From NCBI RefSeq assembly GCF_003665095.1, contig NZ_RCHV01000002.1:62001-126000 (forward strand): a stretch of DNA of 64,000 nucleotides, read 5' to 3'. The DNA is from Streptomyces sp. Z26 (GTDB taxonomy: Bacteria > Actinomycetota > Actinomycetes > Streptomycetales > Streptomycetaceae). Both the position numbers and the translations under genes were made by a program. The notes under the pieces were generated by a model. It saw only the letters and a list, made by a program, of their open reading frames with translations. It was not told where the DNA came from and searched no databases. Below are positions 8,294 to 15,930 of this stretch, one piece after another. The stretch's first letter is position 1. The number at the start of each line of letters is the position of its first letter.

Positions 8294-9186
8294 GCCTGGC
8301 GCCGCGTGCCGTGCTGGTGCACCGCAGGACGGAGTACGAGGAGCTGCTCGCGCGGCACGGTACGCACGGGCAGGCCGCGTTCTTCCTCTCCAGCCGGGGC
8401 CAGTCGGTCGACGAGGTCGTCCGCCGTCACGAGCGCACCCGGCGGGCGCTCCAGGAGGTGGCGGCGGCCGTACCGCTGACCTGGCGCAGCTGCCGGGTGG
8501 AACGGGCCGACCTGGACCGCTTCCTGTTCGCGCCGGAGGACGTGGTGGTCGCCGTCGGGCAGGACGGGCTGGTCGCCAACACCGCGAAGTACCTCGCCGG
8601 GCAGCCCGTGGTCGGCATCGACACCGACCCGGGGCGCAACCCGGGCGTGCTCGTCCGCCACCGCTGCGCCGACACGGCCGCCCTGCTGCGTGCCGCGGCC
8701 GCCGGGCAGGGGGCGGAGGAGCTGACCATGGTCGAGGCCGTCGCCGACGACACCCAGCGGCTGCTGGCGCTCAACGAGATCCACCTCGGCCCGCCCGGCC
8801 ACCAGACCGTCCGCTACCTCCTCGCCCCGGGTGAGGAGGGTGACCCGGTCGAGGCGCAGGCGTCGTCGGGTGTGCTGGTCGGGACCGGTACGGGCGCGAC
8901 CGGCTGGCTGCGCTCCCTCTGGTCGCAGCGCGGGGGCACCACCCCGCTGCCCGCGCCCCGCGATCCGCGCCTGGTGTGGTTCGTACGGGAGGCGTGGCCC
9001 TCCCCGACGACCGGGACGTCGTACGTCAGCGGGGAGTTGGGGCGCGGCCAGGAGCTGCGGCTGACCGTGGAGTCGGACCGCCTCACGGCCTTCGGGGACG
9101 GGATGGAGGGCGACGCGATGGAGCTGGCGCGGGGGCAGACCGTACGGCTGTCGGTCGCGGGCACCTCGTTGCGGCTCGTCACGTGA
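8290..9186 (+). CDS. NAD-kinase-like protein with altered nucleotide motif
   Basis: 298 residues from GTG. Three landmarks of the ATP-NAD kinase fold are present in order: VVAVGQDG (G90-G93) where true NAD kinases have GGDG, LNE (161-163), and GTGTGATGW where the family has a TPTGST-type loop; a late FGDGME also fits. The Asp of GGDG is kept but the second Gly is Gln, and the Ser/Thr loop is changed. The enzyme may use another substrate or act as a sensor. It is coupled to the SPFH gene by a 4-base overlap and its end overlaps the convergent gene by 8 bp. Confidence 0.75.
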   Translation: MSLAPRAVLVHRRTEYEELLARHGTHGQAAFFLSSRGQSVDEVVRRHERTRRALQEVAAAVPLTWRSCRVERADLDRFLFAPEDVVVAVGQDGLVANTAKYLAGQPVVGIDTDPGRNPGVLVRHRCADTAALLRAAAAGQGAEELTMVEAVADDTQRLLALNEIHLGPPGHQTVRYLLAPGEEGDPVEAQASSGVLVGTGTGATGWLRSLWSQRGGTTPLPAPRDPRLVWFVREAWPSPTTGTSYVSGELGRGQELRLTVESDRLTAFGDGMEGDAMELARGQTVRLSVAGTSLRLVT

Positions 9187-10180
9187 ACGCGTCCGGGGGC
9201 GGTGACGTTGGCTTCGGTCCGGGCGGTGACGTGGACGGCGGAGGGGCCGGGGCGGCGGCGTGGAGCGAGACCACCTCGTACGAGAGTGCCGTGCTCGGCT
9301 GCGCCCCGCGGCAGGTCAACCGGCGTGGCGGGGCACGGCGGGCCAGCACCCCGACCTCCAGGAGCGGCGGGTGCGGCGGGCGGCCGGAGACCCGTACGCG
9401 CCAGCCGTCGCCCTCGCGTACGGAGCCGGTGACGGCGTAGTCGTACCGCCCGGCGGGCCCGAAGCGGGCGAGGAGCGCCGCCACGGCGGCCTGCTGCGGC
9501 GGGGGGAGGGTGGTGTAGCCGCGCAGGTGACCGGCGTGGACGCGGTCGGCGAGGTGTTCCGCGACGACCGCGACGGCGGCGGTGGCGTCGAGGCCGCCGT
9601 AGTAGACGCCGTCGGGAGCGACGACGACGTTGGCGGCGAACCGGTCACCGCCCACGTGCGTGCACTCCCACACCAGGTCGGGCCAGCGCTCGGCCAGGGC
9701 GCGCCCGACGGGCCTGCCGCGTACGGCGCAGCAGGTGTCGTGCACACCGTGGGCGCAGACGAGGACCACGGGCGGGTGGCCCGTCTCCCCCGGATCGTCC
9801 ACGGCGGCGGCGATCGCCGCCAGGTCCTCGTCGCGGCGCCAGGTCCCCCAGCGCTGGCGCAGGGCGCCGGAGTCGTCGTGGCGGAGCACCGCCCAGCGGC
9901 CGTACGCGCGGGGTCCGCGCCGCCCCGCCCTGCCGGGCCGTCTGACCAGCAGGATGCGGGCCCGTACGGCCTGGGCGGCGGCGAAGACCAGCGCCTTGGT
10001 GGCCGGGTCGAGCGGGAGGCCGTCGAACCCGTCGGCGGGCCAGCCGCCCGGGTGCTCGACGAGCACCCAGCGCGAGCCGTACGGGGCGGTGCCCGCGAGC
10101 GTGTCCCCGCGCGCGCGGGCGGCGTCCGCGCACAGGAAGCGCGGCGGGGCGGCGGGCGGTTCGCCGGGCGGGCCGGTCAC
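9179..10180 (-). CDS. Sucrase/ferredoxin-like protein (thioredoxin-like [2Fe-2S] type)
   Basis: 333 residues. Cys17 (FLCADAA), Cys142, Cys150, Cys151 and Cys173 lie in the conserved blocks CAHGVHDTCC and ECTHVGGDRFAAN, which identify the Suc_Fer-like family. This fold is related to thioredoxin-like ferredoxins, so an iron-sulfur or redox role is likely. The start is GTG 10180, overlapping the stop of the upstream JmjC gene (GTGA). It is the third gene of the operon that begins with the repeat peptide. The C-terminal 40 residues are Pro-rich and probably disordered. Confidence 0.8.
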   Translation of the reverse strand: MTGPPGEPPAAPPRFLCADAARARGDTLAGTAPYGSRWVLVEHPGGWPADGFDGLPLDPATKALVFAAAQAVRARILLVRRPGRAGRRGPRAYGRWAVLRHDDSGALRQRWGTWRRDEDLAAIAAAVDDPGETGHPPVVLVCAHGVHDTCCAVRGRPVGRALAERWPDLVWECTHVGGDRFAANVVVAPDGVYYGGLDATAAVAVVAEHLADRVHAGHLRGYTTLPPPQQAAVAALLARFGPAGRYDYAVTGSVREGDGWRVRVSGRPPHPPLLEVGVLARRAPPRRLTCRGAQPSTALSYEVVSLHAAAPAPPPSTSPPGPKPTSPPPDAFT

Positions 10181-11382
10181 CGGTCGGCGGGCACCAGTAC
10201 GCCCGCCCGCAGCAGCCGCTCGGCCAGTTCGACGCCGAGGTCGCCGGCGGTGTCGACCCGGCCCGCCAACAGCCGTGCCACGCGCGGCAGTTCCGTCTCC
10301 GGGAAGTCGAGCCAGCCGACCCGCGTGGACAGCCGCGCGCCCTCCAGCCGGGGCGCCAGCGCGTCCCGCAGCCGTACGGGCGAGGTGGGGCCGAGCGCGC
10401 GCAGCGCCGCCAGCTGCGCCAGCGGCCCCAGCGCCGCCGGGCGGCCCTGGCCCCGGTGCGCGCGGTGGAAGGACGGGGCGGGGTCGGCGGCGGCCACGGC
10501 GGCCAGCAGGCGTTCGCGGACCCGTTCGGTCTCGGCGCCCGTCGCGTCCGTACCCAGGGGCAGGCTGTCGCGCATGCCGGGGTCGTCGCGCAGGGCGGCG
10601 AGGGCGGCCCGGGTCAGCTGCTCGGCGAGGGCGTGGCGGGTCCAGGGGTGGACGCCGAGGGTGAGGTGTACGGAGACCTCGCCCCGGGCCCGCGCGGAGT
10701 GCAGCCAGCCGCGCGGCAGGTAGAGGACGTCGCCGGGGCGGAGGACCGCGTCGAGGCGGGCGGGTCCGCGGGCCGCCTCCGCGACGGCGGCGCGGTGGTC
10801 GGTCCACGGCTGGTCGCGCAGCGGGGCGGGGAGCACCGGTTCGTGGACGGTCCAGCGCTTCGTCCCCTCGACCTGGAGGACGAACACGTCGTGCACGTCG
10901 TAGTGCGCGTCGAAGCCGCGGTTCTGCGGGGGTGTCACGTACGCGTTGGCCTGCACCGGGTGCCCCAGCTCCGTACCCAGTCCGGCGACGAGGTCCGCGA
11001 CCGGCTCCCACGTGCGGTGGAGCGCCTGGAGCACGAGCGTGGCGCCGTCCGCGAACGCCCGCCACAGCTTCGTGTCGTCCAGCTGGTCCCCGATGGTGGC
11101 GCCCACGCCCGCGGGCGCGGTGAACGCCGACTCGGGCAGCGTGGCGCCGTCCTTCGCGACGCGGAGGAAGGGCGTACGGAGTCCGCGCCGGGAGACCAGT
11201 TCGTCGACGGCCGCCGCGGAGAACAGGTCGGAGAAGTCGCTCGCGCCTTCGGTGAGTCGCGCGGAACGGGCCCACACGAGGTGGGCGAAGTCGTCCCGGG
11301 TCAGTCCGGTGAGGCGGGGGATCAGGACGCCGACACCGCTGGTGGTGTCGGCGTCCTGGTGCCCGGTGGGGGTCACGCTCAA
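10177..11382 (-). CDS. JmjC/cupin-type 2-oxoglutarate oxygenase
   Basis: 401 residues. A cupin core carries the iron triad H160-x-D162 (FDAHYDVHD) and distal H228 (YLPRGWLHSAR), with VEGTKRW between them as in ribosomal oxygenases such as YcfD, NO66 and MINA53. Those enzymes hydroxylate Arg or His in proteins. The C-terminal 150 residues form the helical and winged-helix-like part usual for this group. TTG 11382 is chosen because it overlaps the stop of the repeat peptide gene; GTG two codons later is possible. The gene order suggests that the upstream repeat peptide could be its substrate (inference). Confidence 0.8.
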   Translation of the reverse strand: MSVTPTGHQDADTTSGVGVLIPRLTGLTRDDFAHLVWARSARLTEGASDFSDLFSAAAVDELVSRRGLRTPFLRVAKDGATLPESAFTAPAGVGATIGDQLDDTKLWRAFADGATLVLQALHRTWEPVADLVAGLGTELGHPVQANAYVTPPQNRGFDAHYDVHDVFVLQVEGTKRWTVHEPVLPAPLRDQPWTDHRAAVAEAARGPARLDAVLRPGDVLYLPRGWLHSARARGEVSVHLTLGVHPWTRHALAEQLTRAALAALRDDPGMRDSLPLGTDATGAETERVRERLLAAVAAADPAPSFHRAHRGQGRPAALGPLAQLAALRALGPTSPVRLRDALAPRLEGARLSTRVGWLDFPETELPRVARLLAGRVDTAGDLGVELAERLLRAGVLVPADR

Positions 11383-11702
11383 GAACGGCTGCCCGCACCG
11401 CCGTCGGCGCCGCCGTCGTGTTCGCCGGGCGTACCGGCCGCGCCACCATCGGCGGGGCCCTCGGCACCTCCGTCAGCGCCACCGTCGTGCACACCCGGCG
11501 TACCGGCCGCGCCGCCGTCCGCCGGACCCTCGGCACCACCATCCGCCCCGCCGTCGTGTTCGCCGGGCGTACCGGCCGCGCCACCATCGGCGGGGCCCTC
11601 GGCACCTCCGTCAGCGCCACCGTCGTGCACACCCGGCGTACCAGCGGCGCCACCGTCCGCCGGACCCTCGTACCCGTTCGGGTCCTGTTCTGACTGGGTC
11701 AT
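11379..11702 (-). CDS. Repeat peptide: four 23-residue units, possible modified-peptide precursor
   Basis: 107 residues from ATG with GGAGGAA 5 bases upstream. After an 11-residue start (MTQSEQDPNGY) come four tandem units: EGPADGGAAGTPG, then V or E, then HDGGADGGA. Units alternate V, E, V, E and the end is GSRS. There is no signal peptide, no Cys and a single aromatic residue. Each unit holds one His-Asp pair and one further Asp, giving four evenly spaced identical sites. The gene overlaps the JmjC oxygenase gene (TTGA), which in turn overlaps the Suc_Fer-like gene. The layout is that of a precursor with modifying enzymes. It could instead be a metal-binding or spacer protein. Confidence 0.7.
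   Translation of the reverse strand: MTQSEQDPNGYEGPADGGAAGTPGVHDGGADGGAEGPADGGAAGTPGEHDGGADGGAEGPADGGAAGTPGVHDGGADGGAEGPADGGAAGTPGEHDGGADGGAGSRS
11413..11688 (-). repeat. Tandem duplication of 138 bp (two 69-bp units each)
   Basis: The segments 11413-11550 and 11551-11688 are nearly identical over more than 100 bases. Each contains two 69-bp units coding for the V- and E-type peptide repeats. The higher identity at 138 bp than at 69 bp shows that the V-E pair was duplicated as a block, and recently. Confidence 0.85.
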
Positions 11703-11853
11703 CGTTCCTCCAAAGGTCCGTGTGGCCGGATGTGTGTGCCCCACGCGCCGGACGAGACCGGGCGCTCCACCGGACGGGACCACTCCGCACGGCGGGACCC
11801 TACAAACCGTATCTCTCCGGACGAAAACCCTCGAATCCACCACCGCCGTCTCC

Positions 11854-14935: not shown

Positions 14936-15159
14936 GTCCCCCACCTGTCGGCCCCTGTCACCTCGGTCGCCGCGTGCGCCCGGTCGCCGCCCAGCCTGCC
15001 GTGAGCGGGTGTCCGTACGGCCGTCGCGGAGCGTTGAACGTACCTCAGCCGTGTATCGGCCGGGCATCACGACCTGCCGCGACGCGCGTCGCCCGGCGCC
15101 GGGGGCGGTGCGCGAAAACCGTTTGCCGGAGCCGTGCGGCGGGCCGAGACTTGGCGACC

Positions 15160-15930
15160 GTGCTGACACGTACGGAGATCGAGGAGTTCGTCGCGAACGG
15201 CTTCGTCCGGGTGCCCGGCGCCGTGCCGGAGGAGGTCGTCGGGCGGTGCCGGGCGGAGCTGTGGGAGGCGACCGGGTCGGACCCGGACGACCCCGCGACG
15301 TGGACCGAACCGGTGGTGCGGCTGGGCGGCTTCGCGACGCCGCCGTTCCGGTCGGCGGCCAACGCGCCCGTACTGCACGAGGCGTTCGACCAGCTCGTCG
15401 GCGCGGGGCGGTGGCGGGCGCCGGGCGGGCTCGGCACGTTCCCCGTGCGCTTCCCCAGCGAACGGGAGCCGGGCGACGACGGCTGGCACCTGGAGGCGAG
15501 CTTCCCGGGCGCGGCGGGTGAGAACCGGGTCAACGTGCGTTCGCGCGGGCGGGCGCTGCTGATGCTGTTCCTCTTCTCCGACGTCGGCCCGGACGACGCG
15601 CCGACCCGGGTGCGCGTCGGGTCGCACCACGACGTACCGGCGCTGCTCGCGGACCACGGGGACGAGGGCCGCGAGTGGTTCGAGCTGTGCGGGGACGCCG
15701 TCGCCGCGAGCGAGGGCCGCCCCGAGACGGCGGCGACGGGCCGGGCGGGGGACGTGTACCTGTGCCACCCGTTCCTGGTGCACGCCGCGCAGCCGCACCG
15801 GGGCACGGTGCCGCGGTTCATGGCGCAGCCCCCGCTGGAGCCCGTGGGCCTCCTCGACCTCACGTCCGACGCGCCCGTCCCGGTGGCCCGGCCCGTGGTC
15901 GAGGCGCTGGCGCGGGCGCGGGAGTCGTAG
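15160..15930 (+). CDS. Phytanoyl-CoA dioxygenase (PhyH) family protein
   Basis: 256 residues from GTG. The start TRTEIEEFVANGFVRVPGAVP is the classic PhyH N-terminus. The iron ligands fit W-H-L-E (H followed two residues later by an acid) near residue 112 and the distal His in FLVHAAQPHRG, which is followed by the Arg expected to bind 2-oxoglutarate. HLE in place of HxD is a conservative change. The substrate is unknown. The gene is divergent from the response regulator, with a 224-bp gap. Confidence 0.8.
   Translation: MLTRTEIEEFVANGFVRVPGAVPEEVVGRCRAELWEATGSDPDDPATWTEPVVRLGGFATPPFRSAANAPVLHEAFDQLVGAGRWRAPGGLGTFPVRFPSEREPGDDGWHLEASFPGAAGENRVNVRSRGRALLMLFLFSDVGPDDAPTRVRVGSHHDVPALLADHGDEGREWFELCGDAVAASEGRPETAATGRAGDVYLCHPFLVHAAQPHRGTVPRFMAQPPLEPVGLLDLTSDAPVPVARPVVEALARARES

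Follow-up and report, generated by a model that had tools for sequence, protein, structure and literature searches.

A repeat peptide encoded with a ribosomal-oxygenase-type JmjC protein and a Suc_Fer-like protein in Streptomyces sp. Z26: a candidate peptide-maturation operon

In a 64,000-nucleotide stretch of DNA from Streptomyces sp. Z26 (NZ_RCHV01000002.1, positions 62,001-126,000; hereafter the window, on which all coordinates are based), three minus-strand genes encode a repeat peptide, a JmjC oxygenase and a Suc_Fer-like protein. Their arrangement raises the question of what the oxygenase acts on. An initial annotation, made from the sequence alone, had described a three-gene operon coupled by 4-base overlaps and starting with a 107-amino-acid peptide of four 23-residue units, an organization that was confirmed on the sequence. 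It had also proposed that the peptide is a multi-core substrate which the JmjC protein hydroxylates at His. The link between peptide and enzyme proved well supported by genomics, but His as the target became doubtful. On balance, the locus probably represents a maturation operon resembling those of ribosomally synthesized and post-translationally modified peptides (RiPPs), in which the JmjC protein would oxidize Asp residues along the repeats with help from a ferredoxin. The genes and the parts of the peptide are as follows:

11379..11702, minus strand: repeat peptide, putative precursor, 107 amino acids, ATG start, 13 Asp, 4 His, no Cys
11707..11711, minus strand: GGAGG ribosome-binding site of the peptide gene (sequence)
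11670..11702, minus strand: MTQSEQDPNGY, the N-terminus ahead of the repeats and proposed leader (sequence)
11601..11669, minus strand: repeat unit 1, residues 12-34 (sequence)
11532..11600, minus strand: repeat unit 2, residues 35-57 (sequence)
11463..11531, minus strand: repeat unit 3, residues 58-80 (sequence)
11394..11462, minus strand: repeat unit 4, residues 81-103 (sequence)
11379..11382, minus strand: TTGA overlap, stop of the peptide gene and start of the JmjC gene (sequence)
10177..11382, minus strand: JmjC oxygenase (PF08007) of the ribosomal oxygenase (ROX) type, 401 amino acids, TTG start within the peptide stop (Pfam, alignment, model)
10177..10180, minus strand: GTGA overlap, stop of the JmjC gene and start of the Suc_Fer gene (sequence)
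9179..10180, minus strand: Suc_Fer-like protein (PF06999), 333 amino acids, GTG start within the JmjC stop (Pfam, model)

Each of the four 23-residue units reads EGPADGGAAGTPG[V/E]HDGGADGGA and contains 3 Asp and 1 His. The peptide is without an evident signal sequence, and a search of NCBIfam returned no family at E 1 for the peptide, the JmjC protein or the Suc_Fer protein.

Conservation of the peptide-JmjC pair

A scan for the JmjC gene in one genome per species, which by design returned close relatives only, yielded 65 loci, all actinobacterial by title. The initial annotation had staked its case on the peptide not being absent beside orthologous JmjC/Suc_Fer genes, and a DGG-type peptide was encoded just upstream of the JmjC gene in 65 of 65 relatives (in one only as a cut end). 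Sixty of these peptides were recovered with the regular expression H[DHQN]GGADG, with gaps of -42 to 152 bases to the JmjC match, and four more were close variants; in L032, the contig begins 53 bases ahead of the JmjC gene, yet reads DGGADGGS. The Suc_Fer gene adjoined the JmjC gene in 62/65 loci, while the remaining three were cut by a contig end within 8, 1, and 593 bases.

For a wider census, a 396-genome sample of the phylum was used. With a threshold of E 1e-20, 58 genomes had a JmjC match and the other 338 had none. Sixty-three JmjC loci, including that of the window, were read after L147 and L148 had been dropped as repeats of G214 and G139, and three of them (L098, L114, L140) were cut by contig ends, leaving 60 judgeable loci; a weak JmjC match (G352:C14:834112) lay outside the loci read. 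An Asp-rich repeat peptide was encoded just upstream in 49 of the 60 judgeable loci; 12 of these peptides are DGG-type and 37 belong to other types. The remainder of the 63 consisted of one locus with a non-repeat acidic open reading frame (ORF; L085), the three contig-end cuts, and ten loci without an Asp-rich repeat. A small precursor-like gene conserved beside a putative modifying enzyme, the arrangement that characterizes RiPP loci, was thus found in both sets (65/65 and 49/60). Matches to HDGGADG occurred in 40/396 genomes and were clustered, with two or more together, in 11, including that of Streptomyces sp. Z26; in all 11, the cluster lay beside the JmjC gene. Only isolated HDGGADG-coding matches were seen in 29/396 genomes, and a reversed control pattern matched in 4.

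Repeats of the DGG clade took the form EGPADGG..HDGGADGG, with 12-22% Asp in the HDGG-type peptides and, by regular expression, 1 to 7 units in relatives. Most of the other repeat types consisted of runs like SDGDASDASDGDA or DADGTDADGTDA and were nearly free of His; unusual arrays were SADGTDQGV-GGTYGPRDA (L101), AGDGAGDAAG (L127), and PTEDDENLDAPGEHSQDTGDE (L133). Cores of the 37 sister-clade peptides, built of Asp-Ala/Gly/Thr/Ser repeats, contained 35% Asp, 22% Ala, 16% Gly, and 0.6% His, and consecutive Asp residues stood 2 or 3 positions apart in 602 of 677 steps. At L047:4404-5717, a single open frame spans the repeat array and the JmjC start and is followed by a frame shift, an arrangement that may reflect either a fusion or a sequencing error.

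In a JmjC tree of 79 rows, the 28 DGG-type rows and L085 formed one group (99/100) and 36 of the 37 other-repeat rows formed a second (97/95), with L133 outside both. Nine of the ten repeat-less loci also fell outside both groups. Repeat type follows the JmjC tree group. Comparison of codons between units within each of 64 peptides gave 3558 identical pairs, 1773 with synonymous differences, and 177 with amino-acid differences, the pairs not being independent of each other. As synonymous differences were ten times as frequent as amino-acid ones, the repeats look as if they are held by selection on the protein. GC-rich, low-complexity repeats expand easily, and the peptide could accordingly be an ordinary disordered acidic repeat protein whose gene order reflects co-expression without a biochemical link. 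Given that the genes are linked in many families of the phylum, that two repeat types belong to two JmjC groups, and that the units show a 10:1 synonymous excess, we consider this explanation extremely improbable. Instead, the genomic evidence makes it very likely that the peptide is the substrate of the JmjC protein.

Short peptides were also encoded beside more distant JmjC genes. In six Streptomyces plasmids (L163-L168), picked from 81 records with a JmjC match, an annotated coding sequence of 43-49 amino acids lay just upstream of each JmjC gene. The peptides of L164-L167 end in SD...G[RK]SD[GM]ND(T), and an aldo/keto reductase gene follows the JmjC gene in these four. The same ending was found in peptides of L129 and L139, two of the ten repeat-less chromosomal loci, and these eight loci constitute a second, likely RiPP-like, peptide-JmjC family. 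Such short Asp-bearing peptides beside distant JmjC proteins widen the case for ROX-fold JmjC enzymes that serve small peptides. No Asp-rich repeat peptide was annotated beside the JmjC genes of five plasmid loci from other phyla (L158-L162). A plasmid search for the peptide at E 0.01, with the low-complexity filter on, gave no match, and no relative was found among viral contigs.

Some of these plasmids carried other gene arrangements. In L159, a Dolichospermum (cyanobacterial) plasmid, a 71-amino-acid ORF (L159:939-1154) lies about 1.1 kb upstream of the JmjC gene, with one ORF in between; its product has MSDEDIKS close to the N-terminus, contains a Gly-Gly site, and finishes in SSAQL repeats. 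The JmjC gene of L160, an E. coli plasmid of about 7.9 kb, stands behind genes for an ABC transporter and for a protein with a Cys-Gly-rich C-terminus; a JmjC match was present in 25 Escherichia plasmid records. On the Rhizobium etli plasmid of L161, the gene row reads radical S-adenosylmethionine (SAM)/SPASM, unknown gene, JmjC, unknown gene, GNAT.

The JmjC enzyme and its putative target residue

The kinship of the JmjC protein with ribosomal oxygenases, implied in the initial annotation, was borne out both in sequence and in predicted fold, the histidyl hydroxylases NO66 and MINA53 being closest. The protein matched Pfam JmjC_2 with 94.9 bits (cut-off 22), and a profile search placed NO66 (E 1e-34) and MINA53 (3e-24) ahead of the YcfD of R. 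marinus (5e-12), B. subtilis YxbC (8e-11), and E. coli YcfD (2e-7) among solved proteins. An AlphaFold2 model (mean predicted local distance difference test score, pLDDT, 86.2) aligned over residues 12-401 with NO66 (4e4h; Z 29.4, 369 aligned residues, root-mean-square deviation (rmsd) 4.9), and matched MINA53 with Z 26.8, YxbC and YcfD with 19.6, and FIH with 13.3. JmjC, dimerization, and winged-helix domains were all recognizable in this predicted model, whose C-terminal part, strands followed by helices, corresponds to the winged helix of ROX proteins; searched alone for five members, this part gave no Pfam match above cut-off. The functional positions of the enzyme are:

10897..10905, minus strand: iron ligands H160 and D162 (HYD), invariant in 34/34 aligned rows
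10699..10701, minus strand: third iron ligand H228, invariant in 34/34 aligned rows
10654..10656, minus strand: Gly243, at the place of the substrate-His-binding Ser of NO66/MINA53 (alignment)
10180..10395, minus strand: C-terminal region, residues 330-401, winged-helix or RiPP recognition element (RRE)-like (predicted model, NO66 match range)

The iron triad was also invariant in the two tree groups (28/28 rows, the DGG-type group counting the window sequence twice, and 37/37 rows).

This fold and family would suit an enzyme that acts on a ribosomal protein, with the acidic peptide serving to regulate it, to chaperone it, or to imitate RNA. A basic groove could be blocked by acidic peptides of low complexity, and the genome of Streptomyces sp. 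Z26 has no PF08007 match other than the window JmjC gene. However, Asp persists in arrays that differ in repeat number and type, the modest Asp content of the HDGG-type peptides fits such a role poorly, the 338 genomes without a JmjC match lack the enzyme at the census threshold, and some JmjC relatives also follow short peptides. A ribosomal target was therefore judged quite improbable, and the encoded peptide was retained as the presumed substrate.

Which residue of the peptide would be oxidized was approached from the repeats and from the pocket of the enzyme. Among 223 HDGG-type sites, a count that leaves out 142 Ala-Asp spacer sites, Asp was present at 221, His at 201, and Gln at 13. The arrays of L045 and L049 (2 of 64 peptides) contain no His and that of L083 has Gln throughout; the JmjC proteins of all three belong to the same clade as those of the HDGG type. 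The expectation that the repeat number varies while the His-Asp pair is kept thus held for the number of units but not for the pair, which gives way to Gln in the window's own clade and is nearly lost in the sister clade. The His-Asp pair is a feature of the window's clade and not of the whole system; only Asp is shared by all the repeat types seen.

By their spacing to the iron ligands, Tyr148 and Gly243 of the window protein presumably correspond to two substrate-binding residues of NO66. In NO66 and MINA53, a Tyr and a Ser hold the substrate His (Tyr328/Ser421 and Tyr167/Ser257, respectively, in the available text of PMC9994133). Alignment indicated that the Tyr is kept as Tyr148, while the Ser is replaced by Gly243 in 34/34 aligned members and likewise in all rows of the two tree groups (28/28, with the window counted twice, and 37/37), so that the Tyr-Ser pair of histidyl ROX enzymes is not found in the window JmjC. 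This replacement argues against a NO66-like His pocket and is no proof of an Asp pocket.

β-Hydroxylation of the His in each HDGG unit, analogous to the action of NO66 and MINA53 on ribosomal His, would accord with the lead of these two enzymes in sequence and fold, with the frequency of His in the window's clade, and with the retained Tyr. The Gln-bearing sites, the three His-free arrays served by JmjC proteins of the same clade, the nearly His-free sister clade, and the exchange of Ser for Gly make this target, which the initial annotation had favored, unlikely. Oxidation elsewhere or of another kind is also conceivable, at a Gly, Ala, or Thr carbon or as desaturation, cross-linking, or further conversion of hydroxy-Asp with electrons from the Suc_Fer protein. 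Besides Asp, the residues common in the cores are Ala, Gly, Thr, and Ser, the JmjC enzyme FIH is reported to catalyze desaturation too (PMC9994133, available text), and the redox partner, together with the aldo/keto reductase of four plasmid relatives, suggests chemistry that goes further than a single hydroxylation. Since Asp alone is kept across the repeat types seen, we regard this alternative as rather unlikely. Asp is probably the main target.

The Suc_Fer-like protein and the proposed maturation

The third gene product matched Pfam Suc_Fer-like with 59.9 bits (cut-off 34.9). In its model (pLDDT 92.4), one region aligned with the Aquifex ferredoxin 1m2a (Z 11.3, 87 residues, rmsd 1.8), so that the predicted model combines a thioredoxin-like [2Fe-2S] ferredoxin fold with the Pfam match:

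9515..9775, minus strand: thioredoxin-like [2Fe-2S] ferredoxin domain of the Suc_Fer protein, residues 136-222 (alignment, predicted model)

Residues C142, C151, H175, and D179 were invariant in 32/32 members. All 32 therefore carry CX8CXnHX3D and not the CX8CXnHX3H motif of yeast Aim32, another thioredoxin-like ferredoxin (PMC8482512, available text). Because C150 and C173 were invariant as well, they could also serve as ligands of the putative cluster. In the census, a Suc_Fer gene accompanied 42 of the 49 peptide-JmjC pairs. Five loci (L082, L084, L101, L127, L133), for which longer stretches were checked, lack it; L097 retains only a remnant (E 5e-4), and in L117 the gene is cut off. L114, re-read as L155, was also without it, and none was found in the fetched stretches of the ten repeat-less loci or of L085. 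The five pairs without Suc_Fer indicate that peptide and JmjC protein form the core of the system and that Suc_Fer is a frequent but dispensable third member, not an obligate partner.

In the maturation proposed here, the first gene would provide a short peptide with an N-terminal stretch followed by an Asp-containing array of changing length. The second would encode an Fe(II)/2-oxoglutarate-dependent JmjC oxygenase of the ROX fold that oxidizes the array at many sites, most plausibly by β-hydroxylation of Asp in D-G and D-A contexts, adding 16 Da per site at up to 12 core Asp sites in the window peptide. The C-terminal, RRE-like winged helix may bind the N-terminal stretch of the peptide, and the ferredoxin, usual but not obligatory, would probably keep the enzyme reduced or drive a later redox step; we infer both of these roles. 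Hydroxy-Asp can act as a metal ligand, and the product would be a hydroxy-Asp-rich peptide that might bind metal, a function we suggest only weakly. In 66 loci with flanks of up to 5 kb and a crude gene call, no transport or metal gene was seen going with the set. A further-reaching version, which we put forward tentatively and regard as doubtful, would be a new class of poly-(3-hydroxyaspartyl) ribosomal peptides, made by a cytosolic ROX-fold JmjC enzyme with built-in leader binding, in which copy number sets the length of an iron- or calcium-binding polymer and a dedicated [2Fe-2S] reductase takes part. In that case, the animal ribosomal oxygenases would be related to enzymes that mature peptides.

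A leader-like motif, [DE]x[DE][IM]x[TS], occurred near the N-terminus of 30/37 sister-clade peptides, of 8/12 DGG-type peptides in the 396-genome sample, and of 16/64 peptides in the 65-locus set. These counts depend on script-chosen starts, and some of the seven sister-clade misses may start too far in. L097 has a near-match (DEDVQA), and a 17th match among the 64, in L049, looked like chance and was not counted.

Several observations weigh against the proposed maturation. The leader-like motif is absent from the window peptide and from the other Streptomyces peptides of the set. L085 (re-read as L154) has a closely related JmjC protein with neither repeat nor Suc_Fer, and a 95-amino-acid acidic, non-repeat ORF instead. 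The ten repeat-less loci had been taken as a negative control, which was weakened by the short peptides ending in SDGND in L129 and L139 and by L142, which falls inside the second tree group on a long branch. No gene family recurred across genera in the flanks of the 66 loci, and hence no protease or transporter was seen as part of the set. At the level of the enzyme, E. coli RoxA, an Arg hydroxylase, has Gly at the place of the Ser and Ile at that of the Tyr, so that Gly243 argues against His more than for Asp. Human NO66 and MINA53 are reported to be narrow for His (PMC9994133, available text), and action on Asp would consequently need a changed pocket.

Upstream of the operon, no metal-regulator box of the Zur/IdeR type was found in 160 bases from 37 loci of three groups, aligned with MAFFT and inspected by eye without a statistical test; apart from the ribosome-binding site, the alignment showed no more than a loosely similar stretch in some Streptomyces. 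Elsewhere in the window, an ORF at 14974-15930 on the plus strand resembles, by eye only, a phytanoyl-CoA-dioxygenase-type (PhyH-like) enzyme.

Relation to known systems and significance

The JmjC protein of the set shares the JmjC_2 family, the HxD...H triad, and the fold, including its C-terminal part, with the His hydroxylases NO66/MINA53 and the Arg hydroxylase YcfD/RoxA. It differs from NO66/MINA53 and E. coli RoxA in being encoded with a repeat peptide and in combining Tyr with Gly, unlike either. The following comparisons refer to the available passages of the papers cited. BipG and PbsQ are JmjC/cupin-like Orn hydroxylases that act on biphenomycin-type RiPP precursors (PMC12707348; PMC12257519). 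They resemble the present set in their JmjC type and in having a ribosomal precursor peptide as substrate, as is proposed here too. Their reaction, however, is one step among those of several metalloenzymes, such as multinuclear non-heme iron-dependent oxidative enzymes (MNIOs), radical SAM enzymes, and arginase or the like, whereas the JmjC protein is the sole oxygenase of the window set and faces a long Asp-containing repeat. Corallotide, a graspetide, derives from one precursor with five repeated motifs that are each modified, and involves a 2-oxoglutarate oxygenase (PMC13097080). There, the Lys δ-carbon is oxidized after cyclization, while the window set has no graspetide synthetase gene.

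Hydroxylation of Asp itself has precedents in PesHI, an MNIO that β-hydroxylates a single Asp, Asp21 (PMC13060819), and in SmaO, an Asp-hydroxylating oxygenase from a graspetide cluster (as cited in PMC13097080). Their product residue, 3-hydroxyaspartate, is the one proposed here, although the enzymes are of other kinds and contexts. RRE-like folds have been described on PF08007 proteins of fish and algae, with the closest bacterial JmjC homologs in RiPP-like contexts (PMC12710340); the passage mentions neither a precursor or repeat nor a Suc_Fer partner or a reaction. With ferredoxins of the Aim32/Apd1 type, the Suc_Fer protein of the set has in common the Pfam family, the fold, as described for Aim32 (PMC8482512), and CX8C; it carries HX3D where yeast Aim32 has HX3H. 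Among the matches listed, the set was not described in the open-licence literature searched, and four peptide strings occurred in no open-licence paper searched. RiPPs with JmjC-type hydroxylases, with Asp β-hydroxylation, and with repeated cores hydroxylated by a 2-oxoglutarate oxygenase are already in print; the trio of a stand-alone ROX-fold JmjC protein, an Asp-repeat precursor, and a thioredoxin-like ferredoxin was not encountered among those matches.

ROX-type JmjC proteins are known for marking ribosomal proteins, and here the same fold travels with an Asp-rich repeat peptide of its own. Because repeat dialects are tied to enzyme clades, substrate choice by the ROX fold becomes testable with natural enzyme-peptide pairs, and a simple, putative peptide-modification system is marked in Streptomyces and mycobacteria. 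If the proposed reaction is true, the hydroxy-Asp array would represent a novel type of ribosomally made metal ligand.

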